A stretch of 64,000 nucleotides of DNA from Nitratireductor indicus C115 (GTDB lineage Bacteria > Pseudomonadota > Alphaproteobacteria > Rhizobiales > Rhizobiaceae), in contig NZ_AMSI01000005.1 of the NCBI RefSeq assembly GCF_000300515.1, positions 124,001 through 188,000 on the forward strand, given 5' to 3'. Below the pieces are notes generated by a model. The model was not told the DNA's origin. It ran no database searches and worked only from the letters and a program-made list of their open reading frames with translations. This document shows, piece by piece, positions 13,108 to 63,826 of this stretch (the first letter of the stretch is position 1; each line of letters starts with the position of its first letter). The position numbers were made by a program, and so were the translations under genes.

Positions 13108-13207
13108 GCGGGTTCATCGTTTCATTGAAACATTGCCAGCTCTATCTCATTGTTTTTACGTATTTATACAGACACCAACTGTAACCGCCTGACTGCAAGA
13201 TGCTCTA
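13108..13207 (-). repeat. Intergenic repeat family B, full copy abutting a gene end
   Basis: Read on the minus strand it begins TAGAGCATCTTGCAGTCA and ends near GTTTCAATGAAACGATGAAC, matching the copy at 63725-63826 (TAGAGCATGTTGCAGTCA ... GTTTCTGCGAAACGATGAAC). Its first three bases are the TAG stop codon of the metallophosphoesterase gene at 13205. Confidence 0.75.
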
Positions 13208-14071
13208 AGCGGCTTTGACGCGCCCGCGATCATAGACGACCACGCTCGGCACGGGCTGTTCGACCTCATTCTCGAGCACTTTCGCCCAATGGATGATCTC
13301 AAAGCTGCCGTCGAGGTTTTCGGCAAGTGCGGTACAGCTTTCCACCCAATCGCCAGTGTTCATATATTTGACGCCTCGGATCGTCTCTATCGCCGCGTGA
13401 TGGATATGACCGCAGATCACGCCCTCGACTTCCGAGCGCCGCGCCTCCTGGGCGAGCACGTCCTGGAAAGAGCCGATGAACTTCACCGCCTTCTTGACCT
13501 TGACCTTCGCCCATGAAGAAAACGACCAGTAGGGCCAGCCGAACACGCGGCGAATGCGGGCAACAACCCGGTTGACGACAATGGCAAGATCGTAGGCCCT
13601 GTCCCCCAGATAGGCGAGCCAGCGTGCATTGTGCACCACCTGGTCGAACTGATCGCCATGGATCACCAGATAATGGTTTCCATCGGCCCCCACATGAATG
13701 GCCCGGTCCGCAACCACGATCCCGCCGAAATGCACGCCCTGGAAAGACCGCAGAAACTCGTCGTGATTTCCAGCAATATAGACCACCTCGGTGCCTTTGC
13801 GCGCCTTGCGTAAGAGCTTCTGCACCACATCGTTGTGACTCGAAGGCCAATGCCAGGAACGGCGCAGACGCCAACCATCCACTATGTCGCCCACAAGGAA
13901 TATCTTCTGCGCATCGTGATAGCGCAGGAAATCGATCAGGAATTCCGCCTTCGCGGGCTTCGAGCCCAGGTGGACATCGGAGATGAAAAGGGTGCGGAAA
14001 TTGCGGTGTGCGGCGCCGTTCATTGCCTCGCCCAAGCCAGATGAAATCGGCCCCTCTATGACTCGATTCAT
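13205..14071 (-). CDS. LpxH-like metallophosphoesterase (UDP-2,3-diacylglucosamine diphosphatase family)
   Basis: A 288-residue calcineurin-like phosphoesterase. All metal-ligand motifs are present: SDVHLGS, VGDIVDGW, AGNHDE, VIHGDQFD and GHIHH. The family (COG2908) includes LpxH, which cleaves UDP-2,3-diacylglucosamine to lipid X in lipid A synthesis; many alphaproteobacteria use LpxI for that step, so this longer protein may have another substrate. The C-terminus carries basic helices (WAKVKVKKAVKF) that could touch the membrane. ATG 14071 used; ATG 14023 (MNGAAHRN) is an alternative, neither has a strong ribosome site. The stop codon is part of a repeat element. Confidence 0.8.
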   Translation of the reverse strand: MNRVIEGPISSGLGEAMNGAAHRNFRTLFISDVHLGSKPAKAEFLIDFLRYHDAQKIFLVGDIVDGWRLRRSWHWPSSHNDVVQKLLRKARKGTEVVYIAGNHDEFLRSFQGVHFGGIVVADRAIHVGADGNHYLVIHGDQFDQVVHNARWLAYLGDRAYDLAIVVNRVVARIRRVFGWPYWSFSSWAKVKVKKAVKFIGSFQDVLAQEARRSEVEGVICGHIHHAAIETIRGVKYMNTGDWVESCTALAENLDGSFEIIHWAKVLENEVEQPVPSVVVYDRGRVKAA

Positions 14072-14194
14072 GTCACAGCCATATGACGGCTACGGTAAGG
14101 ATGGGCGGACGGCAGGGTAATTCCCGGCTTCTAGGCGGGATTTGCGGACGGAATGCCTCACCGGCGCATTCGGCTCTGGAAAAAGCATGCGGCG

Positions 14195-14315
14195 CGGCCT
14201 AAAGCGTGTCGCGATCTTTCAGATTCGCTCAGCACGCTTTGGTTTTTGATTTCGCGAATGTGTTTATTCCGGAACCTGTTCCCACTTTCCGGAGACATGC
14301 GCTAAAAGCACCAAA
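14195..14315 (+). repeat. Intergenic repeat family A in the 342-base gap before maeB
   Basis: Begins CTAAAGCGTGTCGCGATCTTTC and ends GGAGACATGCGCTAAAAGC; its reverse complement matches 37441-37556 over about 110 bases with the same block order. Such mosaic palindromic elements are typical of Rhizobiales intergenic regions. The remaining parts of 14072-14413 hold the divergent start regions of the phosphoesterase and malic enzyme genes; no gene seen. Confidence 0.78.
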
Positions 14316-14413
14316 GCATTCGAAATGCGCGGAGCGGCGCTTGAGGGCTCATCGCTTTCGTGATGCGATGGGTGAGAGGCCGTTTTGGTCCGCCAGCAGG
14401 GAGAGCCGCCAGC

Positions 14414-16729
14414 ATGTCGCCGAAAACGAAGAAGCCGCAACGGTCCGAATTTGACGAGGCCGCGCTCTTCTTTCACCGCTACCCGACACCGGGAAAGCTG
14501 GAAATCCAGGCCACCAAGCCGCTTGGCAACCAGCGCGACCTGGCGCTTGCCTATTCGCCCGGCGTAGCCGTGCCCTGCATGGCCATCCATGACGATCCGA
14601 ATGTCGCAGCCGATTATACGGGGCGCGCCAACCTGGTTGCCGTCGTATCCAATGGCAGCGCCGTTCTCGGTCTCGGCAATATCGGCCCCCTCGCCTCGAA
14701 ACCCGTCATGGAAGGCAAGGCCGTTCTCTTCAAGAAATTCGCCGGGATCGACGTGTTCGACATCGAGATCGATGCGCCCCAGATCGACCGCATGGTGGAG
14801 ACGGTGGCAGCGCTTGAACCAACATTCGGCGGCATCAATCTCGAAGACATCAAGGCCCCGGAATGTTTCGAGGTGGAGGAGCAGCTGAAAGCCCGCATGG
14901 GCATTCCGGTCTTCCACGACGACCAGCACGGCACCGCGATCATCGTGGCGGCGGCAGTAACGAACGGGCTGGAACTTGCCGGCAAGGATATCTCGCAGGT
15001 CAAGATCGTTTCTTCGGGAGCCGGTGCGGCCGCGCTCGCCTGCCTCAACCTGCTCGTCTCGCTCGGCGCGAAACCTGAAAATATCTGGCTCACCGACCGC
15101 CATGGCGTCGTCTTCGAAGGCCGCAAGGAAGAGATGGACCGCTGGAAGGCGCCTTATGTCAAGGACACGGACAAGCGCGAACTCTCGCAGGTGATCGGCG
15201 GCGCGGACGTCTTCCTCGGACTGTCGGCTGCCGGTGTACTGAAACCGGAAATGCTGAGCGGCATGGCCGAGAAGCCGTTGATACTGGCGCTCGCCAACCC
15301 GACGCCCGAAATCATGCCCGATGCCGCCCGCGCGGCACGGTCCGACGCCATGATCTGCACGGGACGCTCCGACTTCCCTAATCAGGTCAACAACGTCCTG
15401 TGCTTTCCTTACATCTTTCGCGGGGCGCTCGACGTGGGCGCCACGGCGATCAACGAGGAGATGAAGCTCGCTGCCGTCAAGGCAATCGCGGCCCTTGCCC
15501 GCGAAGAGCCCTCCGATGTCGCCGCACGCGCCTATTCGGGCGAGACGCCGATGTTCGGACCCGATTTCCTCATCCCCTCGCCCTTCGATCCCCGTCTCAT
15601 CCTGCGCATCGCACCGGCGGTCGCCCGGGCTGCCATGGAAAGCGGTATTGCCTCAAGGCCCATCGAAGACATGGACCAGTATCTGGACCGGCTGAACCGT
15701 TTCGTGTTCCGCTCCGGCCTGGTGATGAAACCCGTCTTCTCCGCAGCCAAGGCGGCGGGGCGCAAACGGGTCATCTATGCCGACGGCGAAGACGAGCGCG
15801 TTCTGCGCGCCGCGCAGGTCGTTATCGAGGAAGGCATTGCGGAACCGATCATCATCGGTCGCCCGCATGTGGTGGAAACCCGGCTCAAACGCTATGGCCT
15901 GCGCATCCGGCCGGGAGAGGACTTCTCCATCGTCAATCCGGAAGACGATCCGCGCTATCGCCATTATGTCGATCTGCTCGTGCAGCTCGCCGGACGGCGC
16001 GGTGTGACCCCCGAAGCCGCGCGCACGCTCGTTCGCACCAACACGACGGTGATCGCCGCCATCGCCATGATGCGCGATGAAGCGGACGCCATGATCTGCG
16101 GTCTCGAAGGGCGCTTCGAGAAACACCTGCGCTACGTGGACATGATCATCGGCAGACGCGAGGGTGTCGGCGACCTTTCGGCGCTTTCCATGCTGATCTC
16201 CCAGTTCGGCGTCACCTTCTTCACGGACACCTATGTATCGCTGTGTCCATCGGCCTCCGAAATCGCGGAAATGACGGTGCTTGCGGCGGAGGAAATCCGG
16301 CGCTTCGGCATTGAGCCGAAAGCAGCGCTCCTGTCGCACTCGAATTTCGGGTCGCGCGATTCCGAAAGCGCTATGAAAATGCGCGATGCCGCACATATCC
16401 TCAAGAAGATCGCACCGGACCTGATTTCGGAGGGGGAGATGCACGGCGATTCCGCCTTGTCGGAAACGCTGCGTCAGCGCGTCTACCCGCAAGCACAGCT
16501 TTCGGGAGAAGCCAATCTTCTGGTCTTCCCCAATCTGGATGCAGCCAACATCACGCTCACGACATTGAAGGTGATGACGGAGGCCCTGCATGTGGGCCCG
16601 ATCCTGCTCGGCACGGCCATGCCCGCCCACATCCTGACGCCTTCTGTTACCTCACGCGGCGTGGTCAACATGACCGCACTCGCAGCCGTGGAAGCGCTTC
16701 AGAAGAGCAAGGCCACCGTCGAAAGCTGA
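14414..16729 (+). CDS. maeB: NADP-dependent malic enzyme with C-terminal phosphotransacetylase domain
   Basis: A 771-residue MaeB-type enzyme: oxidative decarboxylation of malate to pyruvate and CO2. The malic domain (about 1-430) has the conserved [14 protein letters not shown] and the Rossmann segment [12 protein letters not shown]; the second half (about 440-771) is a phosphotransacetylase-like domain with [14 protein letters not shown] and SHSNFGS. In this subtype the PTA part is regulatory (acetyl-CoA inhibition) and generally inactive as a transacetylase. Start ATG 14414 has GGGAGAG about 8 bases upstream; the frame is open further but without a better site. Supplies NADPH and pyruvate during growth on dicarboxylates; in rhizobia its relative is TME. 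Confidence 0.95.
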
Positions 16730-16749
16730 TCAAAGGTGCCGTAAACCAG

Positions 16750-16788
16750 AGCGCCGTGCGTCCTTTCGGATGCACGGCGCTTTGTCTT
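16750..16788 (+). terminator. Rho-independent terminator after maeB
   Basis: A 14-bp stem with one G-T pair: AGCGCCGTGC... pairs with ...GCACGGCGCT, loop TTTC, then TTTGTCTTT. It lies 21 bases beyond the maeB stop. Confidence 0.88.
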
Positions 16789-16809
16789 TCTGTCTTGCAC
16801 CTTCCATAC

Positions 16810-16847
16810 AGACAACAGGCGTTTCAGCCCGACCGGAAAATGCTCTA
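16810..16847 (-). repeat. Degenerate edge of a TAGAGCAT-type repeat at a gene end
   Basis: On the minus strand the sequence reads TAGAGCATTTTCCGGTCGGG, beginning exactly with the TAG stop of the TerB-like gene. The start resembles family B (TAGAGCATnTTGCAGTC) but diverges after about 12 bases, so it may be another family of the same kind. Confidence 0.45.
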
Positions 16848-17255
16848 TTGCGGTGTCGGCATCACCAGATCGTCGGGATTGATGTCGAGAATATCGGCGA
16901 CGCGCGCCATCAAGCGCGCGCGACGGGGCGCGAGGTCCACGTCGCTGGCTGCGATTTCGCCCACGAGATGCGCCAGCGCCAAGCCCCGCACGGTCCCTGC
17001 GCTCTGCAACAGAAGCCGTGTCGGGATCGGGCCGATCTCAGCGCCGAAGCTGCAGGCGGCAGCGACGAGTTCATCGACCTCCTCAGAGGTGTCGTGTTGC
17101 AGACGCTGGGCCACACGATACAGCACAGCGCGCTCGCGCTCACCCGGTTCATTGTCGGTCATGGCCACACGAAGGAGGAGCAGGACCTCACTCCCCAAAT
17201 CCGCGGCCATTGCGGGCCCGTTCGCCCCGGAACCGGGTGTGTCGGGTAACGACAT
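16845..17255 (-). CDS. Conserved hypothetical protein, TerB-like fold
   Basis: A 136-residue all-helical protein. The segment AMTDNEPGERERAVLYRVAQ followed by SEEVDELVAAA resembles the acidic loop and helices of TerB-like domains (tellurite-resistance family, also found fused to J domains), but the metal-binding acidic residues are only partly conserved. It lacks a signal peptide and is probably cytosolic. ATG 17255 preferred over a TTG at 17270; no clear ribosome site for either. Function unknown. The stop codon lies on a repeat edge. Confidence 0.6.
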   Translation of the reverse strand: MSLPDTPGSGANGPAMAADLGSEVLLLLRVAMTDNEPGERERAVLYRVAQRLQHDTSEEVDELVAAACSFGAEIGPIPTRLLLQSAGTVRGLALAHLVGEIAASDVDLAPRRARLMARVADILDINPDDLVMPTPQ

Positions 17256-17270
17256 GATTGAAGCACTCAA

Positions 17271-17577
17271 TGGTTATCGCCCAAACCTTAGATCAGATCG
17301 CATATGGTTGAAAACGAGACTTTCCGGGTGCCCGTAAGTCCGTTTTCGAATCTCTATCTTGCAGAATATTTAGGCGGCAAAGTGTCAGGGCCAAGCCTGC
17401 ACGGGATACGGGCAATTCGTCATATGCGACCGTCAATCGATATCTCCTCCTTCTTCGCCGGGTTCTGGACCTGACGAATGCTTCATCTGAATGACAATCA
17501 TGCACCGTTTCACCTTGCGCAAACCCTGCCGGTGTGGTGCAAGTCGCCTTTTCCTGCCCTCGCTGAACTGTTCTCCC
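17271..17577. other. 307-base divergent intergenic region
   Basis: Separates the TerB-like gene (leftward) from the TSUP permease (rightward). A 56-codon open frame, 17304-17474 (+), lies inside it but has no ribosome-binding site and no recognisable similarity, so it is not called. The rest shows no repeat or clear promoter. Confidence 0.5.
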
Positions 17578-18363
17578 ATGTTTGATGCAAGCCTAGAAAT
17601 GCTTCTGCTCCTGGCCGCGGCGGCCTGTTTCGCCGGGTTCATGGATGCCATCGCCGGCGGCGGCGGTCTTGTCACCCTGCCAACCCTGCTTCTTGCAGGC
17701 TTTTCGCCCGTAGAGGCACTTGGCACCAACAAGCTGCAAGGAATGTTCGGAACCGCCTCAGCAGCCTATTCATACGCGAAGGGCGGCCATGTGGATGTGC
17801 GAAAGCAATTGTCTTCCGGTCTTCTTGCCGGACTTGCCTCCATCGCAGGCGCCTTCGTCGCCACGCTTCTGCCAGCGGATCTGCTTCGAGCCATGCTGCC
17901 GATCCTGTTGATCGCAGTGGCACTCTATTTCGCCTTCAAGCCCAATCTCGGCGATATCGACCGGACCCAACGGCTCACCCCCTTCGTTTTCGGCCTCACT
18001 GCCGTTCCGCTTCTGGGCTTTTACGATGGTGCATTCGGGCCGGGCACCGGCTCCTTTTTCATGCTGGCCTTCGTCAGCCTCGCCGGGCAGGGCCTTCTCA
18101 AGGCCACCGCACATACGAAGTTCCTGAACTTCGCTTCCAATGTCGGCGGTTTCATCGCCTTCGCCTTCATCGGCGTCGTGTCATGGAAGATCGGCCTCGT
18201 CATGGGATTTGCCCAGATTATCGGCGCCCGTATCGGCGCGACCTTCGCGATGAAGAAAGGCGCAAAGCTCATCAAGCCGCTTCTGATCCTCGTCTGCCTT
18301 GCGCTGGCGGTGCGATTGATGATGGACCCGACCAATCCGCTCACGCGTTATATTGGTCTATAA
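17578..18363 (+). CDS. TSUP family (TauE/SafE-like) permease
   Basis: A 261-residue inner-membrane protein with about eight hydrophobic segments. The diagnostic features of the TauE/SafE family are seen: AGFMDAIAGGGGLVTLPTLL near the N-terminus and the repeat-like GFYDGAFGPGTGSFF in the middle. The family exports small organosulfur compounds or sulfite, or imports sulfur/carbon acids; the substrate is unknown here. The frame extends to 17491, but the ATG at 17578 places the first membrane helix at the usual distance. Followed 51 bases later by a small membrane protein gene on the same strand. Confidence 0.85.
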   Translation: MFDASLEMLLLLAAAACFAGFMDAIAGGGGLVTLPTLLLAGFSPVEALGTNKLQGMFGTASAAYSYAKGGHVDVRKQLSSGLLAGLASIAGAFVATLLPADLLRAMLPILLIAVALYFAFKPNLGDIDRTQRLTPFVFGLTAVPLLGFYDGAFGPGTGSFFMLAFVSLAGQGLLKATAHTKFLNFASNVGGFIAFAFIGVVSWKIGLVMGFAQIIGARIGATFAMKKGAKLIKPLLILVCLALAVRLMMDPTNPLTRYIGL

Positions 18364-18414
18364 GCGCCGGTCCCGGGCAGCCTTATCCCCGCGCCAACAA
18401 AACGCGAGGACGCC

Positions 18415-18585
18415 ATGACGCTCAACCCACCCACCAAAATCATTTTCCTGATCAGCCTGGTCATCGCCATTATCGCGATTGTCGCAGCGCTGAACATGCT
18501 CTCCTTCATTCCCTTCCCTGCGTTCTGGATCATGACCATCGCCTATATTCTTCTGTCGGCGGGCGTGATCTTCAAGGGAATCTAG
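18415..18585 (+). CDS. Small two-helix membrane protein (56 residues)
   Basis: A short frame with a good GAGGA ribosome site at 18405-18410 and ATG at 18415. The product is almost wholly hydrophobic: one helix at about 8-28 (IIFLISLVIAIIAIVAALNM) and one at about 33-54 (FPAFWIMTIAYILLSAGVIF), joined by a proline turn. No annotated function; similar short double-helix proteins are frequent in Rhizobiales. It ends 3 bases from the convergent cobQ stop. Probably cotranscribed with the TSUP permease. Confidence 0.75.
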   Translation: MTLNPPTKIIFLISLVIAIIAIVAALNMLSFIPFPAFWIMTIAYILLSAGVIFKGI

Positions 18586-18588
18586 CCG

Positions 18589-20058
18589 TTATCGTGCGGC
18601 CGCCAGCAATGCGTCGCAATCGATATGCTCCTCGAGGCGCTCAGCAAGTGCGTCGAGCGCCTTCTCCACGCCGTCGCGGTAGGATGTCGTGCTGGACGAG
18701 ATACCGCGTTCGGCGAGAAAGCTTCTGCGAAACGCATCGGCGCTGAACAGACCATGGAGATAGGAGCCCCAGACGCGACCGTCACGCGAGGTCGCGCCGT
18801 CTGCTCTGTTTCCGATCATCGCGACGGGAGATGAGCAATCATCCCCTCGAGTATCGCCAATGTGGATTTCGTAGCCTTCGAGCGGCACGTCATATCGCGC
18901 TGAATGCGCGGTCACTTCCCTGACCGTCTTTTCAGATCGCATTACGGTTTCAACATCAAGGAAACCCAGACCGGGGACCTCACCCGCCGCCCCCTCGATT
19001 CCTTCCGGGTCGGATATCGAGCGTCCCAGCATCTGATAGCCGCCGCAGAGCCCGACAATGCCCGTGCCCTTGCTGCGAAGGGCGCGAAGATCGTCCTCCC
19101 AGCCCTGCACCCTCAAAAATGCGAGATCGGCGATGGTGGATTTCGTTCCAGGCAGTACGATCAGATCCGCGTCCGAAGGGAGCCGTCGGCCCGGCGGCAC
19201 GAAAACCACCTCCACTTCCGGCTCGGCTGCAAGCGGGTCGAGATCATCGAAATTGGCGATCCGCGACAACATGGGAACAACCACCTTCAACCTTGCCTGC
19301 CCGACAGGAGGCGTTCTTGCCAGTGTCACGGTGTCTTCCGCCGGCAAAGCTGCGACCTCCCGGAGCCACGGCACGACACCGAACGATCGCCAGCCGGTAA
19401 ACCTGCCGATAGCCTCAAGCCCCTCATCAAAAAGCGTGAGATCGCCCCGGAACTTGTTGATCAGATAGCCAACGATCATGGCCCTGTCGGCTTCATCAAG
19501 AATGCGGTGTGTGCCGGCGAGAGCAGCGATAACCCCACCCCGGTCGATATCGCCCACAAGGACGACCGGAACCTTCGCCCGTGTGGCAAATCCCATATTG
19601 GCGATATCGCGGTCACGCAGGTTGATTTCTGCGGGCGAGCCCGCGCCTTCGACAATGACCAGATCGGCATCGGCAGACAGGCGCGTGAAGGATTCCATTA
19701 CAGCATCGAGCAACCGTCCCTTGAGGGACTGATAGTCACGCGCAGCGGAAAAACCGAGCGGGCGCCCCTGCACCACGATCTGCGCGCCCGTGTCGCTCTC
19801 TGGCTTGATCAGCACCGGGTTCATGTCCACGCTGGGTTTCACGCTGCAGGCTTGCGCCTGGAGCCATTGTGCACGGCCGATCTCGCCCATTGTCACGCTA
19901 CCGGGAATGGACGCCACCGCCGCGTTGTTGGACATGTTCTGCGGCTTGAAGGGGCGCACGGCAATGCCCCGACGGTGGGCCACGCGGCAGAGACCGGCGA
20001 CGAGTACCGACTTGCCGACGTCGGAGCCCGTTCCCTGCAGCATAATGGCTCTCACCAT
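18589..20058 (-). CDS. cobQ: Cobyric acid synthase
   Basis: A 489-residue glutamine-dependent amidotransferase that amidates four side chains of adenosylcobyrinic acid a,c-diamide in the aerobic and anaerobic B12 pathways. N-terminal synthetase P-loop GTGSDVGKS at residues 9-17; C-terminal class I glutaminase with the nucleophile in GLCGGYQMLG and a final catalytic His region (GSYLHGLF). The frame opens upstream to 20262, but ATG 20058 with GGAAAG 8 bases before it gives the standard MVRAIMLQGTGSD start. No other cob gene is next to it, and the 142-base upstream gap is too short for a full cobalamin riboswitch. Confidence 0.96.
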   Translation of the reverse strand: MVRAIMLQGTGSDVGKSVLVAGLCRVAHRRGIAVRPFKPQNMSNNAAVASIPGSVTMGEIGRAQWLQAQACSVKPSVDMNPVLIKPESDTGAQIVVQGRPLGFSAARDYQSLKGRLLDAVMESFTRLSADADLVIVEGAGSPAEINLRDRDIANMGFATRAKVPVVLVGDIDRGGVIAALAGTHRILDEADRAMIVGYLINKFRGDLTLFDEGLEAIGRFTGWRSFGVVPWLREVAALPAEDTVTLARTPPVGQARLKVVVPMLSRIANFDDLDPLAAEPEVEVVFVPPGRRLPSDADLIVLPGTKSTIADLAFLRVQGWEDDLRALRSKGTGIVGLCGGYQMLGRSISDPEGIEGAAGEVPGLGFLDVETVMRSEKTVREVTAHSARYDVPLEGYEIHIGDTRGDDCSSPVAMIGNRADGATSRDGRVWGSYLHGLFSADAFRRSFLAERGISSSTTSYRDGVEKALDALAERLEEHIDCDALLAAAR

Positions 20059-20200: not shown

Positions 20201-21370
20201 ATGGATGCCACCGTTTCGCACGCGTCGGAGCAGTTCGAGCTGAATGCCGACCAGCGTGCCATTCAGGAAATGACCCAGAGTTTCGCGGCCGACCGCGTTG
20301 CCCCGTTCGCACTCGAATGGGACCGGGAGAAATATTTTCCGGCCGATGTGGTGCGCGAAACCGGGCCGCTCGGCTTCGGCGGCATCTATGTCCGCGACGA
20401 TGTGGGCGGATCGGCCCTCGGCCGACTCGATGCCGTTTTGATCTTCGAGGCACTGGCGGCAGCCTGCCCCGGCTTCTCGTCATTCATCTCCATCCACAAC
20501 ATGGCCGGCTGGATGATCGACACGTTCGGCAGCGAAGAGCAGCGCCAGCGCTTTCTGCCGAAGCTGACCTCTATGGAATGGCTGGCGAGCTACTGCCTGA
20601 CTGAACCCGGTTCCGGTTCGGACGCTGCGGCGCTGAGGGCCCGTGCGGTGAAATCCGGCGGCGACTATATCCTCAACGGCACCAAGCAATTCATCTCCGG
20701 CGCTGGCGACAACGACATCTATGTCGCGATGGTGCGTACCGGCGAGGACGGGCCGAAGGGCGTATCCACCATAGTCATCCCCAGGGATGCACCCGGCCTC
20801 TCTTTCGGGCCGGCCGAACAGAAGATGGGCTGGCACATGCAGCCCACCCGGCAGGTGATCTTCGAGGATTGCAAGGTGCCGGCAGAGAACCTGCTCTCCC
20901 GCGAAGGAGAAGGTTTTCGCATCGCCATGGCCGGCCTCGACGGCGGGCGGCTCAATATCGCCGCCTGCTCGCTCGGGGGGGCGCAGACAGCACTCGAAAA
21001 AGCCCTCACCTACACACAGGAACGCCAAGCCTTCGGCCAGGCGATCAACCGCTTCCAAGCCTTGCAGTTCAAGCTTGCAGACATGGAAACAGGGCTGCAG
21101 GCCTCGCGCATGATGCTCTACACGGCAGCCTCCAAGCTCGACGGCAAGACGGCCGATGCCTCCAAATGGTCCGCCATGGCCAAGCGCTTCGTGACCGACA
21201 CCTGCTTCGACATTGCCAACGACGCGCTGCAGCTTCATGGCGGTTACGGTTATCTGCATGAATACGGCATCGAGAAACTGGTGCGCGACCTGCGCGTTCA
21301 CCAGATTCTCGAAGGCACCAATGAAATCATGCGCGTGATCATCGCGCGTCATCTGGTGGGGCGGAGCTAG
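20201..21370 (+). CDS. Acyl-CoA dehydrogenase, isobutyryl-CoA dehydrogenase-like
   Basis: A 389-residue FAD flavoenzyme. Family motifs are seen: CLTEPGSGSDAAAL (substrate/FAD binding), QFISGAG, and the C-terminal QLHGGYGY and ILEGTNEIMR. The next gene encodes 3-hydroxyisobutyrate dehydrogenase, which points to the isobutyryl-CoA (valine) step rather than fatty acid oxidation. Start ATG 20201 follows GGAGG by 5 bases; the open frame upstream overlaps cobQ. Electrons pass to ETF. Contains a run of seven G within the gene, in frame. Confidence 0.9.
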   Translation: MDATVSHASEQFELNADQRAIQEMTQSFAADRVAPFALEWDREKYFPADVVRETGPLGFGGIYVRDDVGGSALGRLDAVLIFEALAAACPGFSSFISIHNMAGWMIDTFGSEEQRQRFLPKLTSMEWLASYCLTEPGSGSDAAALRARAVKSGGDYILNGTKQFISGAGDNDIYVAMVRTGEDGPKGVSTIVIPRDAPGLSFGPAEQKMGWHMQPTRQVIFEDCKVPAENLLSREGEGFRIAMAGLDGGRLNIAACSLGGAQTALEKALTYTQERQAFGQAINRFQALQFKLADMETGLQASRMMLYTAASKLDGKTADASKWSAMAKRFVTDTCFDIANDALQLHGGYGYLHEYGIEKLVRDLRVHQILEGTNEIMRVIIARHLVGRS

Positions 21371-37336: not shown

Positions 37337-37367
37337 GTAAATCCCCGGGACAAGCCCGGGGATTTAC
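37337..37367. repeat. 13-bp perfect palindrome after purB
   Basis: GTAAATCCCCGGG (37337-37349) and its exact reverse complement (37355-37367) flank the 5-base loop ACAAG. There is no T-run, so it is a REP-like stem rather than a canonical terminator; it may still stabilise or end the purB transcript. Confidence 0.8.
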
Positions 37368-37375
37368 GGAGACGC

Positions 37376-37556
37376 TTTTCTGCTCCATCTCCTCATTTTG
37401 CCGCATTCGCGCGGGCGTCGGATGTTTCCATCCGACTGCAAAATGCTCCAACGCATGTCTCCCGGAAGTGGGTACCGGTTCCGGGATAAGGACATGCGTT
37501 AGATCAAGAACTTGAAGCGCAGGGAGCGTATCTGAAAGATCGCGATACGCTTTAGC
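37376..37556 (-). repeat. Composite intergenic repeat, family B partial joined to family A
   Basis: On the minus strand a family-A copy (TAAAGCGTATCGCGATCTTTC to GGGAGACATGCG, 37556 down to 37447) runs directly into a family-B part (GGAGCATTTTGCAGTCGGATGG and on, 37446 to 37376). The minus-strand VOC gene ends with the TAA of the family-A start, at 37552-37554. Confidence 0.78.
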
Positions 37557-38373
37557 CACCATCCCTTGCCATAGGCGCAACGCGGATCACCGTGCCCCAC
37601 GGGTCGGCAAATTCCTTTTCCGCGCTTGCATTGCGGCTTTGCAGTTGAACCCAGGAAAGGCCGGTGCGCCGGGGATCGCGAGCGCCTGCTCCGGCACTCC
37701 GCCAGGTGTTGGCGCCGATGTGATGGTGATAGCCGCCGGTTGCCAGGAACACCGCCTGCGAACCGTAGCGTGCCATCGTGTCGAAGCCCTGTGCTTCATG
37801 CCACCAGCCCTCGGCCGTGCGCGGATCACCGACACGCAGATGCACATGGCCGACGACCGTTTTTTCAGGCACGCCCTGCCAGCCCCGGTCGCCCTCGCCG
37901 AGCGTACCGAGAAGGCTCTGAAAATCCAGAGGATTGGTAGCCATCTCTATGCCAGAGGTCGTGCGGCGCCAGCTCTCAGGTGCGCGATCCGCATAGATTT
38001 CGATGCCGTTGCCTTCAGGGTCCGACAGGTAGATCGCCTCACTGACAAGGTGGTCGGAAGCGCCTTCCAGTGGCAGCCTGTTGTCACGAGCAAACACTGA
38101 CCAGCGCGCAAGGTCCGACCGCTCCGGCAGAAGAAAAGCCGTGTGAAAGAGGCCGGCCTCGCGGGGATCGTCAGGCATGGCGGATGGATCTTCCTCGATC
38201 TCCAGCAGCGTGCGGCCACCGGCGCCGAGCCTGTAGACATTGCCGGATCGCCCGTTGTCCTCAAGGCCGAGGACCTTTCCATAGAAGTCTGCCAGCCGCC
38301 CCGCATCGCGAGCCTTCAGGCCTACGCTCTCGACGCTGACGGGCGTCGTCACCGCAAAGGGAAATTCGCTCAT
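37552..38373 (-). CDS. VOC family (glyoxalase/extradiol dioxygenase fold) protein
   Basis: A 273-residue protein of two tandem vicinal-oxygen-chelate modules (CatE-like). The first begins ESVGLKARDAGRLADFY with IEIYADR at its end; the second has GHVHLRVGD, then FLATGGYHHHIGANTW. Metal-ligand candidates are H in GLFHTAFLL, E in GIEIYAD and the second-module HH pair. Such proteins are metal-dependent dioxygenases or lyases; substrate unknown. The stop codon is the edge of a repeat. Divergent from an RBBP9-like hydrolase with a 245-base gap. Confidence 0.82.
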   Translation of the reverse strand: MSEFPFAVTTPVSVESVGLKARDAGRLADFYGKVLGLEDNGRSGNVYRLGAGGRTLLEIEEDPSAMPDDPREAGLFHTAFLLPERSDLARWSVFARDNRLPLEGASDHLVSEAIYLSDPEGNGIEIYADRAPESWRRTTSGIEMATNPLDFQSLLGTLGEGDRGWQGVPEKTVVGHVHLRVGDPRTAEGWWHEAQGFDTMARYGSQAVFLATGGYHHHIGANTWRSAGAGARDPRRTGLSWVQLQSRNASAEKEFADPWGTVIRVAPMARDGG

Positions 38374-48119: not shown

Positions 48120-48460
48120 TCAAAAGACATATCCAGACCCGCATCAATCACCGGGTGGTCGAACACAATGGCGTTCTCTATTTCGGCGGCCTGGTGGCCG
48201 ACGACAAATCCGTCAACATGAAGGGACAGACGGAGCAGATCTGCGCAAAAATCGACGCCCTCCTGGCCGAAGTCGGCTCCTCCAAGGACAAGCTTCTGAC
48301 GGCCATGATCTACATCTCCGATTTCTCACAGAAGGACGGGATGAACGAAGCGTGGCTGGAGTGGATGCCCGCAGAACATCTGCCGACGCGGGCGACCATC
48401 GGCGTGGCCGAACTCGGCAAGGATACGCTGATCGAAGTGGTGGTTTCGGCGGCGCGCTAG
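48116..48460 (+). CDS. RidA family enamine/imine deaminase
   Basis: A 114-residue RidA-fold protein. The key arginine that contacts the substrate carboxylate is kept (R92, in PTRATIGVAEL) as is the Glu near the C-terminus (E107). RidA hydrolyses reactive enamine/imine intermediates, the very products formed by the amine oxidases coded just upstream. GAGGAG precedes ATG 48116, and the gene overlaps the FAD subunit by 4 bases. Last gene of the operon; its TAG stop is followed by another repeat-like stretch (GCGCATCGCG). Confidence 0.88.
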   Translation: MIKRHIQTRINHRVVEHNGVLYFGGLVADDKSVNMKGQTEQICAKIDALLAEVGSSKDKLLTAMIYISDFSQKDGMNEAWLEWMPAEHLPTRATIGVAELGKDTLIEVVVSAAR

Positions 48461-51774: not shown

Positions 51775-51780
51775 TGAAAA

Positions 51781-56839: not shown

Positions 56840-56953
56840 TATATGCACTTTTAACCACAAACCAGCGCCCTTTACATCTCGCCATCCCGCGCCGGCATCG
56901 CGCCGATTTCATCGCGGGGGTTGTCATCAACAGCGAGATCGAAAGGACGTTCC

Positions 56954-57244: not shown

Positions 57245-57278
57245 CCGTTGCCGGACACTTTGCAATGCCGGATATCAA

Positions 57279-57305
57279 AGGAGGCAGGCCACAGGCCTGC
57301 CTCCT
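57279..57305. terminator. Hairpin between convergent genes
   Basis: AGGAGGCAGGCC (57279-57290) pairs exactly with GGCCTGCCTCCT (57294-57305), loop ACA. No real T-run on either strand, so termination is likely only partial. It lies in the 87-base gap between the secreted protein and the enoyl-CoA hydratase. Confidence 0.6.
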
Positions 57306-57331
57306 CCAAACCGGCAAAGGCCGAAATTCCT

Positions 57332-58153: not shown

Positions 58154-58282
58154 CGTTTTCCTCCCGGACGAATGTTTGCCTTGAATACTCGGCTTCAGCA
58201 TAGTGCGCCTTGTCTGGCGGCTGCAATCCGGCAATTGTCTGAACCTCATGCGCCAGCAATGACATCTGCGGGAGGACGGTGA

Positions 58283-58750
58283 ATGGATCAACGGCAATTA
58301 CCTGGTGCCTATGTTCCTGTAATGGGGGCCGAGGAAGTGAACCGCTTTCTGCGGGAGGTTTTCCCCCAGGCCTGCGGCGGCGACCCGCAGGAATACCGGG
58401 CGACGGACATTCGCCCCGGCTGCTGCACGGTGCGCCTCGATGCCGGGTTCAAGCATCTACGCCCCGGAAACACGGTTTCCGGCCCTTCGCTCTTTGCCCT
58501 TGCGGATATCGGCGGGTATGTCTGCGCCCTCTCCCATATCGGGCCCGAAGCGCTGGCGGTGACCACCAATCTCAACATCAATTTCATGCGCAAGGCCGTG
58601 GCGGGCACGGTCGAGGGCCATTGCCGCATCCTCAAGCTCGGACGGCGGCTGATGATTTTCGAAGCCGAAATCGTGGCCGGTGAACACTCGGAAATCGTCG
58701 CACATGCGACCGGCACCTACTCTATTCCGCCCGTTCGAGCAGGCAGCTGA
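58283..58750 (+). CDS. PaaI-family hotdog thioesterase
   Basis: A 155-residue hotdog-fold protein. TVSGPSLFALADIGGYVCAL and VTTNLNINFMRKAVAG are the family motifs; the active-site Asp is in ALADIGG. Hydrolyses an acyl-CoA of unknown type. GGGAGGAC precedes ATG 58283. Often next to rplM-rpsI in Rhizobiales. Confidence 0.88.
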   Translation: MDQRQLPGAYVPVMGAEEVNRFLREVFPQACGGDPQEYRATDIRPGCCTVRLDAGFKHLRPGNTVSGPSLFALADIGGYVCALSHIGPEALAVTTNLNINFMRKAVAGTVEGHCRILKLGRRLMIFEAEIVAGEHSEIVAHATGTYSIPPVRAGS

Positions 58751-58870
58751 AGGGAAATTCAAGGCGAAATTTACGGTATCCAATTACCACAAAATTAAGC
58801 CATTGATTTTGCTAATTTATTTTTACAGAACTACGCATACCAGTGCTTGACGTAATCGCCCCGCACGGGT

Positions 58871-58909
58871 AGGAAACCCCAGCTGCTCCGGCTTTTCGGG
58901 GCAGTTCCT
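58871..58909 (+). promoter_or_regulatory. Structured leader upstream of rplM
   Basis: AGGAA (58871-58875) pairs with TTCCT (58905-58909), and CTGCTCCG (58883-58890) with CGGGGCAG (58897-58904) around GCTTTT. Ribosomal operons are often autoregulated through such leaders; a candidate -35 CTTGAC at 58846-58851 is just upstream, but then transcription would begin inside the stem, so promoter and hairpin cannot both be right. The region 58751-59001 contains no gene. Confidence 0.4.
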
Positions 58910-59001
58910 GTTTGGGTTGCAGTTTTTTCTTCTCGCGACACAAACAAAAGCAACAAGAAACGCCCAGCCTTCCGGCAGGGATCATGAAAGTGGAAAAACC
59001 C

Positions 59002-59466
59002 ATGAAAACCTTTTCGCAGAAGCCTGCGGAGGTGACGAAGAAGTGGATCCTGATCGACGCCGAAGGTCTCGTCGTCGGCCGTCTCGCCACCATCGTCGCC
59101 AATCGCCTGCGCGGCAAGCACAAGCCCACCTTCACCCCGCATGTGGACGATGGCGACAATGTCATCATCATCAACGCGGACAAGGTGGTCTTCACCGGCA
59201 AGAAGTACACCGACAAGAAGTACTACTGGCACACCGGCCATCCCGGCGGCATCAAGGAGCGCACCGCGCGCCAGATCATCGAGGGCCGTTTCCCGGAGCG
59301 CGTTCTTGAGAAGGCCGTCGAGCGCATGATCCCGCGCGGCCCGCTTGGCCGCCGCCAGATGAAGAATCTGCGCGTCTACGCCGGCGCTGAGCATCCGCAT
59401 GTCGCCCAGAACCCGGAGACGCTCGACGTCGCCGCCATGAGCAAGAAGAATGTGAGGGCCCAGTAA
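59002..59466 (+). CDS. rplM: 50S ribosomal protein L13
   Basis: A 154-residue ribosomal protein. [22 protein letters not shown] is the alphaproteobacterial start, and [17 protein letters not shown] and [20 protein letters not shown] the conserved core. ATG 59002 is preferred because homologues begin there; ATG 58984 six codons upstream has an AGGGA site. Followed by rpsI in a one-base overlap. Confidence 0.97.
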
Positions 59467-59948
59467 TGGCCGAAATCAACTCTCTCCAGGAACTGGGCGC
59501 GGCAACCGCCGCTCAGGCTCCCGAGCAGCAGGCTCCGGTCCATGTGCAGAAGCTCGACGCACAGGGCCGCGCTTACGCCACCGGCAAGCGCAAGAACGCC
59601 ATTGCCCGTGTGTGGGTGAAGCCGGGTTCCGGCAAGATCACCGTCAACGGCAAGGAATTCGCCACCTATTTCGCACGCCCGGTTCTGCAAATGATCCTGC
59701 AGCAGCCGATCGTTGCCGCCAGCCGCAACGGCCAGTACGACATCGTCGCCACGGTCGTCGGCGGTGGTCTCTCCGGTCAGGCCGGTGCTGTGCGCCACGG
59801 CATTTCCAAGGCTCTCACCCATTATGAGCCGGAACTGCGCGGCGTTCTCAAGAAGGGCGGCTTCCTGACCCGCGACAGCCGCGTGGTCGAGCGCAAAAAG
59901 TACGGCAAGGCGAAAGCCCGTCGCTCGTTCCAGTTCTCGAAGCGCTAA
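59466..59948 (+). CDS. rpsI: 30S ribosomal protein S9
   Basis: A 160-residue ribosomal protein. [18 protein letters not shown], the central [16 protein letters not shown], and the basic C-terminal tail ending FSKR that reaches into the ribosomal P site. The first 30 residues (Ala/Gln-rich) form the extension usual in Rhizobiales. Starts in TAATG with the rplM stop. Confidence 0.97.
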
Positions 59949-59970
59949 GCTTCAGGACAGACCGAACGAA

Positions 59971-59998
59971 AAAGCGGGCCTTCGGGTCCGCTTTTTTG
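59971..59998 (+). terminator. Rho-independent terminator after rpsI
   Basis: AGCGGGCC pairs with GGTCCGCT (one G-T), loop TTCG, then TTTTTTT. Typical strong terminator. Confidence 0.92.
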
Positions 59999-60078
59999 TT
60001 GCGCGGTTTTCTGCTTGCCCCTACCCATTGGCCCCAGCCAAGGGCCGGTATGCTGAAGCCCTTGCACGGAGAAGCGCC

Positions 60079-61026
60079 ATGCCGTCGCATTCCATCGACC
60101 ACGCCTTCGCAGCCCGCTCCCTGACGGGAGCCGCCAGCGACCCGACCTATGCGGGTGCGCTCTCCTTCATGCGCCGCAAGTTTTCCAAGAATCTCAAGGG
60201 CGCCAATGCGGTTATATGGGGCATTCCCTTCGACGCGGCTGTTTCCAACCGGCCAGGCGCGCGCTTCGGGCCGCAGGCGATCCGCCGCGCCTCCGCCATC
60301 TTCGACAACGATCCGCAATATCCTTTTGAGCGCGATCTCTTCGCCGAAATGGCCGTGATCGACTATGGCGATTGCCTGCTCGACTACGGCAATCACCAGA
60401 AGACGCCGGCAACAATCGAGCGGGAAGCGGCAAAGATCCTGAAATCCGGGGCCTTTCTTCTGTCGCTTGGCGGCGACCATTTCGTCACCTGGCCGCTTCT
60501 CAAGGCCCATGCGGCGGTTCACGGGCCACTCGCCCTCGTCCAGTTCGATGCTCATCAGGACACCTGGCATGACGATGGAAAGCGCATCGATCACGGTTCC
60601 TTCGTGGGACGTGCGGTGCGTGACGGGCTGATCGATCCTGCCGCTTCCATCCAGGTCGGCATCCGCACTCACGCGCCGGAGGATTGCGGCATCCGCATCG
60701 TTCACGGCTTCGAGGTCGAGGAAATGCGCTCCGCCGAGATCGCGGCAGCGATCCTTGAGCGGGTGGGCGACCGCCCGGCCTATGTGACCTTCGACATCGA
60801 TTGCCTCGATCCGGCCTTCGCGCCGGGCACGGGCACGCCGGTCGCGGGAGGACCTTCGAGCGCCCGGATGCTTTCGGTGATACGCCAGCTCGGCGCGCTG
60901 AACATGGTCGGCGCGGATGTGGTGGAAGTGGCCCCGGCCTACGACCATGCCGACATCACGGCCATCGCGGGCGCAACCATCGCCATGCATTATCTGGGGC
61001 TTCTCGCTGAAAAGCGACGAAGATAA
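60079..61026 (+). CDS. speB: Agmatinase / ureohydrolase family protein
   Basis: A 315-residue Mn2+ ureohydrolase. The metal ligands are present in GGDHFVTWP, DAHQDTWHD and DIDCLDPAFAPGTG. SpeB splits agmatine to putrescine and urea; other family members are guanidinobutyrase and similar, so the symbol is by family likeness. ATG 60079 has GGAG 7 bases upstream. The next gene is argC, and the polyamine-type importer is nearby on the map. Confidence 0.85.
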   Translation: MPSHSIDHAFAARSLTGAASDPTYAGALSFMRRKFSKNLKGANAVIWGIPFDAAVSNRPGARFGPQAIRRASAIFDNDPQYPFERDLFAEMAVIDYGDCLLDYGNHQKTPATIEREAAKILKSGAFLLSLGGDHFVTWPLLKAHAAVHGPLALVQFDAHQDTWHDDGKRIDHGSFVGRAVRDGLIDPAASIQVGIRTHAPEDCGIRIVHGFEVEEMRSAEIAAAILERVGDRPAYVTFDIDCLDPAFAPGTGTPVAGGPSSARMLSVIRQLGALNMVGADVVEVAPAYDHADITAIAGATIAMHYLGLLAEKRRR

Positions 61027-61114
61027 GAGCTCACAGACAGATTCAACGCGCTCGCGCATTGATTCCGCATCGCGGCGCAACCAATTGAAATACGATTCTT
61101 TTCGGGAACAAGAC

Positions 61115-62044
61115 ATGACGGCGAAAATCTTCATCGATGGCGAACATGGCACCACGGGTCTGCAGATCAGGACACGGCTTGCCGAGCGCCGCGACATCGA
61201 GGTCATTTCCATCCCGCCGGAAAAGCGGAAGGACGCCGACGCCCGCGCGGAATTCCTCAATGCCGCCGATATCGCCATACTGTGCCTGCCCGACGACGCG
61301 GCGCGCGAGAGCGTTTCGCTCATCGAGAACAACACGACACGCGTCATCGATGCCTCCACCGCGCACCGTGTGAGCGATGGCTGGACGTACGGCTTCGCCG
61401 AGATGGACAAAACCCAGACGGATGCCATCCGCTCGGCCGGCCGCGTTGCCAATCCGGGCTGCTGGCCGCAGGGCCCGATCGCCTTCCTGCGCCCGCTTAT
61501 CAAGGCTGGGCTTCTTCCCGACAGCCTGCCTGTCACGGTGAACGGCATTTCCGGCTATTCGGGCGGCGGCCGCACCATGATCGAGGATTACGAGGCCAAG
61601 GGCGAAGACGCGCCCGAGTTCATGCCCTATGCACTGACGCTGAAGCACAAGCACGTGCCTGAACTGCAGGCCTATTCGCGCCTTTCCGGCGCACCGCTGA
61701 TGCAGCCTGCCGTCGGAAATTTCGCGCAGGGCATGCTGACGGCCCTGCCCCTTCAGCTCGGCCATCTGGACCGCGTGCCGACGGGTGCAGAGCTTCATGC
61801 CGCACTTGCTGGTCACTATGGTTCGGTCGGCGGCGTGGTGCGGGTCGCTCCGCTCGGTGACATGGAGCGCACGGGCGGTCTCGATCCCGAAAGCCATAAC
61901 GACACCAACGACATGACACTGTATGTCTTTGCCAATGACGCCCGCGCACAGGCGCTTCTGATTGCCGTCTACGACAATCTCGGAAAGGGTGCCTCCGGCG
62001 CGGCCGTGCAGAACATGGACCTGATGCTGGAAGGGCGCGACTGA
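61115..62044 (+). CDS. argC: N-acetyl-gamma-glutamyl-phosphate reductase (short type)
   Basis: A 309-residue enzyme of the short ArgC type. Catalytic C116 in NPGCWPQGPIA, NADP-binding opening IDGEHGTTGLQIRTRL, and GYSGGGRTMIEDYE. Third step of arginine synthesis. The open frame extends upstream, but ATG 61115 gives the standard start. An arginine precursor gene next to an agmatinase gene is common in Rhizobiales. Confidence 0.95.
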   Translation: MTAKIFIDGEHGTTGLQIRTRLAERRDIEVISIPPEKRKDADARAEFLNAADIAILCLPDDAARESVSLIENNTTRVIDASTAHRVSDGWTYGFAEMDKTQTDAIRSAGRVANPGCWPQGPIAFLRPLIKAGLLPDSLPVTVNGISGYSGGGRTMIEDYEAKGEDAPEFMPYALTLKHKHVPELQAYSRLSGAPLMQPAVGNFAQGMLTALPLQLGHLDRVPTGAELHAALAGHYGSVGGVVRVAPLGDMERTGGLDPESHNDTNDMTLYVFANDARAQALLIAVYDNLGKGASGAAVQNMDLMLEGRD

Positions 62045-62053
62045 GGCCCTTCC

Positions 62054-62881
62054 TTGAAACCGCCTGCCTTTCCCGTCGCGTGGAACATCGTCTCGGCTCA
62101 GCTCATGGCCGATACGCCCGCAAGCTTCGTCTGGGAGGTCCGTCGCGCTGACGGCAGCCGCGCCGTGGTCAAGGACATGAAGCCCGCCGGTCTCGAAAAC
62201 GAGAAGACCGGCGCGCGCTTCCTGCAATGGCGCAATGGCCGCGATGCAGTCAGGCTTCTGGGCTGGGAAAACCAGGCCCATCTGCTGGAGTATGCCGGCG
62301 ACCGTACGTTGCTCGACGAACTGAACGAGAAGGGTGACGAAGCGGCAAGCGAACTCGCCATTGAAATGCTCGTCCGACTGGGCGACGATTCAGCCCTTGA
62401 CACCCCTCAAGGGCTGACTCCCCTCGATGAGCATTTCCGCAGCCTCTTTACCCGCGCCGACCATGATCGGCAAAACGGTCGCGAGACACTCTTCACGGAT
62501 GCCGCGGACTGCGCGCGCAAGCTCATCGCGAACCAGCGCGACCTGCGTCCCTTGCATGGCGATTTCCACCACGAGAACATGCTTCACGGCCCGCGCGGCT
62601 GGCTCCTGATCGACCCCGCAGGCGTTTACGGCGATGCCTGCTACGATGCGGCCAATCTCTTCTACAACCCGCTCGACAGGGATGATCTGCGCGGCGATCC
62701 CGCCCGCGCCGAAAGGCTCGCCCGTCAGCTTGCGCGCCGGCTCGGGCGCGAGGAGAGCGATTTTCTCCTCTATGGTTTCGTGCATGCCTGTCTTTCGGCT
62801 TCATGGCATCTTGGGGACGACAACCGGCAAGAGGCCGAACGCAGCCTCAACGTTGCTCGCGCCGTGCACGCCGCGCTTTAG
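62054..62881 (+). CDS. Aminoglycoside/hydroxyurea phosphotransferase-like kinase
   Basis: A 275-residue APH-fold protein. The catalytic loop LHGDFHHENML and the metal-binding segment IDPAGVYGDACYDAANL are intact, matching the APH(6)/hydroxyurea-resistance family. It may phosphorylate aminoglycosides such as streptomycin or another small molecule; antibiotic resistance is not shown by sequence. Begins with a TTG at 62054, with GAGG 7 bases upstream; no ATG fits. Follows argC by 9 bases. Its TAG stop coincides with the insertion point of the IS element. Confidence 0.8.
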   Translation: MKPPAFPVAWNIVSAQLMADTPASFVWEVRRADGSRAVVKDMKPAGLENEKTGARFLQWRNGRDAVRLLGWENQAHLLEYAGDRTLLDELNEKGDEAASELAIEMLVRLGDDSALDTPQGLTPLDEHFRSLFTRADHDRQNGRETLFTDAADCARKLIANQRDLRPLHGDFHHENMLHGPRGWLLIDPAGVYGDACYDAANLFYNPLDRDDLRGDPARAERLARQLARRLGREESDFLLYGFVHACLSASWHLGDDNRQEAERSLNVARAVHAAL

Positions 62882-63724
62882 GGCTAAAACCCAATCAGAG
62901 TATTGAACAGGTTTGGCAAATCAGATTCTCTTCGTGCCAAGGCATGATGGAGGCGTTGATGAGCAGGCTTTTCTGGTTGAGCGACGAGGCTTGGGCGGTG
63001 ATCGAGCCGCATCTGCCAACCAACCAACCCGGCGCTCATCGCACCGATGACCGCCGGGTCATCAGTGGCATCATTCACGTGCTGCGCTCGGGTTGCCGGT
63101 GGCAGGATTGTCCTGCCTGCTACGGACCGCCAACGACGATCTACAACCGCTTCCATCGGTGGTCGGCGCGCGGAATATGGCGACGATTGTTTGACGCCCT
63201 GGTGCAATCGAGCGATCGGGACATCCACATGATCGACAGCACCACGTCCAAGGCCCATCGATCGGCAGCGGGCGGAAAAGGGGGGCAGACGGCCAGGCAA
63301 TCGGCCGCTCGCGAGGCGGCAGGTCGACAAAAATCCATGCTGTTGTCGATAGCTGCGTCCGTCCCCTCGCGATCAATATAACGCCGGGACAGCGGGGGGA
63401 CGCGCCCATTGCCGTGCCGCTGCTCGCAACCCTGCCACCCGCCCGCCTATGTGCCGCCGACACCGCCTATGACAGCAATGTCTTGCGCGCGTTTCTCATC
63501 GCGCGCGGCACCGAGCCGGTGATCCCCAACAATCCAACTCGAAAGAACATCCAGCCATTCGATGCTGAAGCTTACAAGCGCAGAAACATCATCGAACGAA
63601 CCTTCTGCCGTCTCAAGGATTGGAGACGCGTCGCGACCCGATATGACAAGCTCGCAATCAACTTCGCAGCAACCTGCTACATAGCCGCAATCTTCACATG
63701 GTGGGCATGATTGAGTCTCGACCC
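62881..63724 (+). mobile_element. IS5-family (IS427-type) insertion sequence, 844 bp
   Basis: Ends are imperfect inverted repeats: left GGGCTAAAACCCAATCA and right (reverse complement of 63708-63724) GGGTCGAGACTCAATCA, 12 of 17 identical. Both sides are flanked by TA (62879-62880 and 63725-63726), the short target duplication typical of this group. Removing the element joins GCGCTT TA GAGCATG, that is, a repeat of family B directly on the kinase gene end. It encodes a transposase in two overlapping frames. Confidence 0.85.
62959..63710 (+). CDS. IS5/IS427-type DDE transposase in two frames (-1 frameshift)
   Basis: The first frame, from ATG 62959 (MSRLFWLSDEAWAVIEP), carries the DUF4096-like N-terminal domain and the first catalytic Asp in HMIDSTTSKAHRS; it then runs to a stop at 63381. 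The second frame, in the -1 register, carries the rest (ATDTAYDSN-like Asp and RRNIIERTFCRLKDWRR with the catalytic Glu) and ends at 63710. The frames overlap around AAAAGGGGGG (63276-63285), where a -1 slip restores KGGADGQAIGRS, the normal family sequence, giving about 250 residues. Programmed frameshifting is known in this IS group; a decayed single-base change is the alternative. A GGAGG site precedes the start. Confidence 0.8.
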
Positions 63725-63826
63725 TAGAGCATGTTGCAGTCAACTGGGATCACCTGACGTCCGCACAAATGCAAAAGCATGGAGATAGAACGGAGCAGCG
63801 TTTCTGCGAAACGATGAACCGCTCTA
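63725..63826 (+). repeat. Intergenic repeat family B, complete copy with inverted ends
   Basis: A 102-base element beginning TAGAGC and ending GCTCTA (inverted ends), with the internal TTGCAGTCA, CTGACGTCCGC and GTTTCTGCGAAAC blocks shared with the other copies. It fills the gap between the APH-like gene (before the IS insertion) and ctaA, giving the TAG stop codons of both. Confidence 0.82.

Follow-up and report, generated by a model that had tools for sequence, protein, structure and literature searches.

Repeat edges and gene ends in the window

The DNA analysed here, below called the window, is a 64,000 nucleotide stretch of the draft genome (4.99 Mb) of Nitratireductor indicus C115, bases 124001-188000 of contig C5. 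It contains copies of two families of intergenic repeat, A and B, several of which abut protein-coding genes so closely that the first three bases of the repeat are the stop codon of the gene. A preliminary description had claimed that repeat edges supply the stops of six named genes, and this was borne out for five of them, one only in the arrangement that preceded an insertion. The metallophosphoesterase gene (13205-14071, minus strand; Metallophos domain) stops at a TAG (13205-13207) that is the left end of a family B element (13105..13207, minus strand), found as a profile match with its edge at offset 0, the first base of the stop being the first base of the element. The TerB-like gene (16845-17270, minus strand; TerB domain) likewise ends on the left-end TAG (16845-16847; offset 0) of a B element (16751..16847, minus strand, right end approximate) that has the alternative right arm CCGTGCATCC..GGACGCACGG-CGCTCTGG. 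The VOC/glyoxalase gene (37552-38373, minus strand; Glyoxalase domain) stops at the left-end TAA (37552-37554; offset 0) of a family A element (37449..37554, minus strand), whose right end adjoins a partial B copy (37358..37450, minus strand), forming an A-B composite.

At the end of the window, the right end of a B element (63725..63826, plus strand) reads TAG on the minus strand (63824-63826) and is, at offset 0, the stop of a gene that extends from 63824 on the minus strand to beyond the window and that, following the preliminary description, we take to be ctaA. On the other side of this element, an APH_6_hur-family kinase gene (62054..62881, plus strand) ends in a TAG (62879-62881) that was once continuous with the left end of the B element. 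Their separation is due solely to an IS5-family insertion sequence (IS) with a two-part transposase (62882..63724, plus strand), which lies between TTA and TAG in the YTAR (Y, pyrimidine; R, purine) formed by the gene stop and the B left edge and has left the stop intact (TTAG). The APH-like kinase gene did, therefore, end on a repeat before the IS arrived, but the repeat is of family B and not, as had been stated, of family A; the TAAAGCG found there is the 3' end of the gene itself in reverse reading.

The sixth gene, RidA (stop TAG at 48458..48460, plus strand), was said to end on a third motif, TAGCGCATCG. This motif occurs six times in 1.26 Mb and at a stop only here, and BLAST with the stretch around the stop returned weak relatives only, so that there is no recognisable repeat edge; the match is a coincidence. 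At 21113, TAGAGCAT is likely a chance match, as the family B profile search returned nothing at that position. In the window, TAAAGCG alone is no commoner than in shuffled sequence, and for family A only the full 105 bp model is meaningful. One family A element (14200..14302, plus strand) lies away from any stop codon, upstream in a divergent context. No Rfam family reached its gathering score in the window.

Coincidence of edges and stops beyond the window

Edges and gene ends were compared in 1.26 Mb of the same genome (contigs C1, C3 and C5), in which 1138 genes were predicted with a custom codon-usage script, not a standard gene caller. The 73 B copies found there have 106 resolvable edges, and at 26 of these edges (25/73 elements) the first base of a stop codon is the first base of the element. 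Left ends make up 20 of the 26. At other offsets, 21 stops were scattered over positions -60 to -1, with no position above three, three were at +1 or +2 and none was found from +3 to +60. Offset 0 therefore holds about 70 times the mean per-position count over -60 to -1. The same signal appears without a repeat model: TAGAGCATTT is the most frequent 10-mer starting at a stop codon, and 10 of its 19 occurrences are stops.

In a set of 107 loci from other genomes, comprising 27 same-genus loci and 80 of 109 named stretches (29 were left out), a stop was at offset 0 in 39/168 edges (38/121 elements), while elsewhere between -80 and +120 no position held more than three. Same-genus loci contributed 12/55 edges and named loci 27/113. 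Nine plasmid regions were also opened, seven of which carry gene annotation by others, and in four of these seven the end of an annotated gene coincides exactly with that of an element. The end used is the left (TAA or TAG) in Nitratireductor sp. OM-1, Sinorhizobium americanum and S. meliloti, and the right (TAG) in N. kimnyeongensis, at a locus possibly identical to L082 of the other-genome set. Among the remaining annotated regions, a gene enters the copy by approximately 30 nt in one, and two have no gene ending on the element. For family A, a stop lies at an edge in 12 of 26 distinct matches, counted by eye with fragments included and often on 3 kb loci, where gene calls are less sure; the edges read TAA or TAG on the left and TAA on the right. 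We conclude that the seating of these repeats on stop codons is real and beyond chance, and the proposal that they are located on gene ends at TA-containing stops is upheld.

Structure and distribution of the elements

Both families are approximately 105 bp long (the B profile model covers 101 bp plus end bases). The B consensus runs from TAGAGC to GATCTA or GCTCTA, giving short symmetric ends, TAGA(G/T)C, and the consensus end triplets are TAG/TAG in B and TAA/TAA in A, that is, TA followed by a purine at every end. The TA has been kept at 57/106 edges in N. indicus and the remainder have decayed. A typical B copy (L016) folds into two arms and a linker (z = -10.6 against shuffled sequences), and the terminal loop of the left arm contains GANTC in 126/214 B copies, compared with 23.2 expected from shuffles, the typical copy having GAATC. 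In family A, for which there were only nine copies, GANTC was found in three (1.0 expected). The midpoint of a B copy falls inside a predicted gene in just 2/73 cases in N. indicus and 4/134 in the other genomes.

When the window's copy was used as the query, family B was found in 11/11 same-genus genomes and in none of 20 genomes of other genera. An exact internal B pattern, among the matches listed (at least 109 stretches), returned records named Nitratireductor, Sinorhizobium, Ensifer, Chelativorans and Aquamicrobium as well as other records. Weaker B-like matches (80-81%) were seen in two plasmids of Novosphingobium (NZ_CP140001.1 and NZ_CP017076.1), a genus outside the rhizobial order. 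Copy number appears to vary widely within the genus, with 188 unconfirmed first-look B candidates in one genome (G003) and 14-22 in six sister genomes.

The right arm of B can be exchanged, and copies of A and B adjoin at several places, so that the families are mosaic. The alternative right arms GGTTCA..TGAACC and CGTGCGTCC..GGACGCACG occur on one left module, in the window copy at 16751-16847 and in L169, L172, L174 and L209, and two Sinorhizobium plasmid copies (L351 and L352) have a further, different right arm. Abutment of A and B is exact, with edge bases common to both, at C3:266314, C5:310954, C18:60482 and C24:28571 of G000 and at 37450 in the window. These shared edges look as if one family had entered the end of the other.

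The Caulobacter CcrM-associated intergenic repeats (CIR) were reportedly first described by Chen and Shapiro in 2003. In the accessible part of a 2007 review they are presented as approximately 110 bp long, with two long inverted-repeat arms and a linker (PMC2229807). Family B resembles them in its length of approximately 105 bp, its arms and linker, the GANTC of the left loop, its TA ends, its location almost always outside genes and its occurrence in alphaproteobacteria (PMC2229807). Target duplication is entered as '?' for CIR in that part of the review, which calls for more information on the mechanism of mobility, whereas a YTAR target and TA duplication are indicated for B (PMC2229807). 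Table 1 of the same source gives no terminal inverted repeat for CIR, while B has short symmetric ends that are too short to decide this point (PMC2229807). Families A and B are thus CIR-like miniature mobile elements, the likeness being to the description of CIR rather than to the CIR1-CIR4 sequences.

Probable target site and double stops

Just outside the element, C or T predominates before the left TA and A or G after the right end. Where a stop-seated left-end copy has both ends resolved, a purine follows the right end in 24/24 cases, so removal of the element leaves TAR. The partner end has kept its TA in 12/24, and such decay is expected if only the seated edge became coding sequence under selection.

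Orthologous sites that lack the element could be aligned for four stop-seated copies, and in all four the relative has TAG at that codon. One comparison is of N. soli L220 with C3:308016 of N. indicus (GGCTAGTCC; 92% identity over 242 bp), and the others are L301 with L299, C3:88933 of N. indicus with L295, and C1:359118 of N. indicus with L311. The relative has a single TA where the element has one at each end, though one end has decayed in two cases. A YTAR target with duplication of the central TA is supported but not proved by these junctions.

As YTAR is its own reverse complement, one site can stop two overlapping convergent genes. Both edges of a single element are stops at C1:20212 and in L151, and in the window the B copy at 63725-63826, with its former left edge, served both the APH-like gene and ctaA, in agreement with the earlier suggestion that a pair of convergent genes can be closed by a single element. 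Judging from the flanks, a stop site once common to both genes was split by these elements into two.

Why stop codons are occupied

YTAR is rare in genes, with 484 sites in 1.09 Mb of coding sequence, and in unoccupied spacers stops account for 45/89 YTAR sites between convergent genes and 64/429 between tandem genes. The scarcity of YTAR within genes, together with the fact that stops make up about half of the YTAR sites in convergent spacers, would explain why so many genes end on a repeat. A target-blind null was tried and is misleading, as it ignores the rarity of YTAR. Stop-seated copies make up 17/30 of those in convergent regions, where the YTAR share of stops is 0.496 (P = 0.28), and 8/30 in tandem regions, where it is 0.168 (P = 0.12). 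With uniform choice among the YTAR sites of each copy's own intergenic region, 26.3 stop-seated copies were expected and 25 observed in N. indicus (64/73 copies), and 33.4 were expected and 35 observed in the other genomes (102/134 copies), giving P = 0.80 and 0.29, respectively. This test dropped 9 and 32 copies, respectively, that had no left edge, had no neighbouring gene, lay in a gene or overlapped. When bare TA was taken as the target, there was a mild excess at stops (P = 0.027 and 0.025).

Occupancy per YTAR site was 17/70 for stops and 13/71 for other spacer sites in convergent regions, 8/84 and 22/415, respectively, in tandem regions, 4/302 in divergent regions and approximately 2/486 in genes. 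High occupancy in convergent regions and low occupancy in divergent regions and coding sequence is the pattern expected if harmful insertions are lost. What makes a stop a target is its YTAR sequence and not its role as a stop, and uniform use of YTAR fits the seating. The stop frequency at edges far exceeds the per-position background, as the preliminary description had anticipated, but equals expectation once the YTAR target is used. Its further suggestion that the elements evolved to sit on gene ends found no support.

The explanation that we favour, at a probability of roughly 0.8, is that CIR-like elements enter YTAR with TA duplication and leave a working stop. It builds on the exact coincidence of edge and stop, the same codon in most orthologues and the TAG at four unoccupied sites, all of which were observed. 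Families A and B would insert at the palindromic YTAR and duplicate its central TA; where that YTAR is a TAG or TAA stop preceded by a pyrimidine, the codon would again read TAG or TAA after the insertion, leaving the protein unchanged. Insertion into a joint site would yield two separate stops, one per gene. Silent insertions of this kind would persist, as would those in convergent spacers, while insertions within genes and ahead of promoters, which are rarely found, would have been purged. In a G+C-rich genome with few YTAR sites in coding sequence, and with stops at about half of those between convergent genes, many of the survivors would be seated on stops. As part of the coding sequence, the seated end would then be conserved, and the partner end would decay. 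Mobilization would be in trans, presumably by a TA-duplicating, IS5-like (YTAR-type) transposase.

Stops in orthologues

The preliminary description had reasoned that orthologues without the repeat should not use the same stop at the same position, and in most pairs the position is in fact the same. Among 109 orthologue pairs in which one member lacks the element, 84 share the end codon, the orthologue is shorter in 22 and longer in three, and for ordinary genes the fraction of equal pairs is 0.75-0.85. The repeat usually occupies a stop rather than shifting it. One gene is represented in L258 (from G010), L260 (from G008) and C5b:120264 of N. indicus. The N. indicus and G008 versions end on TAG at a B right edge, while in G010 the stop keeps its codon position but reads TGA, and next to it lies an internal stretch of the element, as if one base and a portion of an arm had been lost.

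Relatives of element-seated genes often end in TGA. We take this to reflect a rapid exchange of stops in convergent genes. The YTAR stops of convergent genes turn over fast between species, with TAR (TAG or TAA) in approximately 0.35 of orthologues, compared with 0.50 for tandem genes. Against the closest match, convergent YTAR controls (0.35, 40 groups), the TAR fraction of element-seated genes did not differ significantly (P = 0.18). Descent from TGA genes was strongly favoured by the comparison with all TAR controls (P = 0.0003).

Several observations weigh against silent insertion at existing YTAR stops. In equal-length pairs, the orthologues of 26 element-seated genes have TAR in a fraction of 0.27, compared with 0.525 for 134 YTAR controls (P = 0.001), and are not distinguishable from those of TGA-gene controls (0.18, P = 0.08). 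In all pairs the fractions are 0.33 and 0.485 (P = 0.017), with 0.215 for TGA controls (P = 0.028). The difference from YTAR controls persists with one control per orthologue group (0.26 in 24 groups and 0.43 in 83 groups, median P = 0.035) and against tandem YTAR controls (0.50, P = 0.008). We have set aside descent of the element-seated genes from TGA genes, but a route through TGA may still have been taken. Some stop-seated genes also differ in length from their orthologues, among them the VOC gene, which exceeds its four orthologues by 2-5 residues. At the junctions, the base before the TA is not a pyrimidine in 4/26 TA-bearing stop-seated edges in N. indicus and 12/37 in the other genomes, ATAG rather than YTAR stands at one of the four unoccupied sites, and several other junction alignments are ambiguous or have no TA in the unoccupied relative. 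The null tests score a junction as a site even when it is not YTAR. Finally, no autonomous element with B-type ends was found, there being no full-length relative among the copies, though no dedicated search was made, and the transposase is accordingly a supposition. The IS in the window was considered as the mover of the repeats and rejected: its ends differ, and it has one match in its own genome at E <= 1e-10 and one distant partial relative, in 1/10 other same-genus genomes.

Alternative explanations

If insertion near the 3' end of a gene had instead made a new stop, with the TAG of the element truncating or extending the gene or replacing TGA, then the extra residues of the VOC gene and the frequent TGA in orthologues would be accounted for, as would the orthologues of L149 and L217 in N. 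indicus, which are longer by 7 and 22 residues, respectively. However, the end codon is shared as often as in control genes and TAG is present at all four unoccupied sites. Moreover, insertion in a random frame predicts approximately two genes that enter the element for each one that stops at its edge, but genes that enter it are almost absent. Stops past the edge (+1 to +120) were found at 4 edges in N. indicus and 6 in the other genomes, compared with 65 at offset 0, and such a frame lottery was rejected. We therefore consider the creation of new stops improbable as the general route. Active recognition of gene ends or stops beyond YTAR, for example via terminator structure or translation termination, could explain why stops are occupied more often than spacer YTAR sites overall (25/154 and 39/788, respectively) and why a bare TA target leaves a mild excess. 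As the excess is gone both within region types and with the YTAR target, recognition of this kind is also quite unlikely.

Edges could instead be kept at stops because the hairpins act as terminators or stabilize 3' ends. The typical copy folds far better than shuffled sequences (z about -10), and, from the right end, its TAG opens a 19 bp hairpin followed by the T-rich TCTCTTTGTTTTT, which may end transcription. Against this, left ends provide 20 of the 26 stop-seated edges, and the typical copy has no such T-run there; the stability of the window copy is unremarkable (z = -1.6 and 0.0), and occupancy is accounted for without any role for the hairpin. A terminator role is accordingly rather unlikely to be what holds the edges in place. 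There is almost nothing left of the coincidence alternative, that TAGAGCAT is merely a frequent string that gene callers favour as a stop. It could draw on the chance-level frequency of TAAAGCG in the window and the coincidental RidA motif, but it is already refuted by the 10/19 occurrences of TAGAGCATTT that are stops, by the single spike at offset 0 and by replication in other genera and in the annotation of others. Silent insertion with TA duplication is the reading that we retain.

Relationship to other repeats

Rhizobium-specific intergenic mosaic elements (RIME) were reportedly described by Osteras in 1995. Their likeness to the elements described here is in name only: they are rhizobial and mosaic, and B has exchangeable right arms and adjoins A. 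A parallel in behaviour is found in repetitive extragenic palindromic sequences of the GTAG class (GTAG REPs), which, in the accessible portion of the source, lie mainly between co-directional and convergent genes and whose ends often give a TAG stop to flanking genes (PMC3733652). GTAG REPs differ in that they are 20-40 bp long and are discussed there with tyrosine transposases and without an account of target duplication or unoccupied sites (PMC3733652). Families A and B, at approximately 105 bp and with ends TAGAGC and TAAAGCG, are not 20-40 bp GTAG palindromes. In Brucella, IS711 is described, in the part of the source available, as using a YTAR target with TA duplication and preferring the palindromic repeats Bru-RS1 and Bru-RS2 (PMC2266754). 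The IS in the window, inside the YTAR of a repeat edge, appears to do likewise and so parallels IS711 in the Bru-RS repeats, though the IS is a different one and the likeness of the repeats is not one of compared sequence (PMC2266754).

Supply of stops by repeats was thus already known in another class, the GTAG REPs, as far as the accessible portion of that source goes (PMC3733652). In the part of the open-access literature covered, we found no account of CIR, RIME or Bru-RS repeats being seated on stop codons, and no target-based explanation with a matched-control test. New here are the explanation by silent insertion, the target and duplication of CIR-like repeats, and single sites that close two genes.

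Implications

A target, together with the survival of silent insertions, offers a simple and testable reason why repeats crowd gene ends that calls for no recognition of genes. It also suggests a target and TA duplication for CIR-like repeats, whose mobility was left open in the accessible part of the 2007 review (PMC2229807). A speculative extension, which we regard as possible but doubtful, is that stops are a general safe harbour for small TA-duplicating elements and that TA-plus-purine ends were selected for silent insertion into stops. If so, family B would have gained about one in six YTAR stops (25/154 in 1.26 Mb) as well as joint convergent stops, and stop seating would be predicted for every YTAR-targeting element with purine-led ends. 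For annotators, the finding is a warning that true coding sequence may include the edge of a repeat, and that the use of TAG in genomes of this kind bears, in part, the mark of mobile elements.

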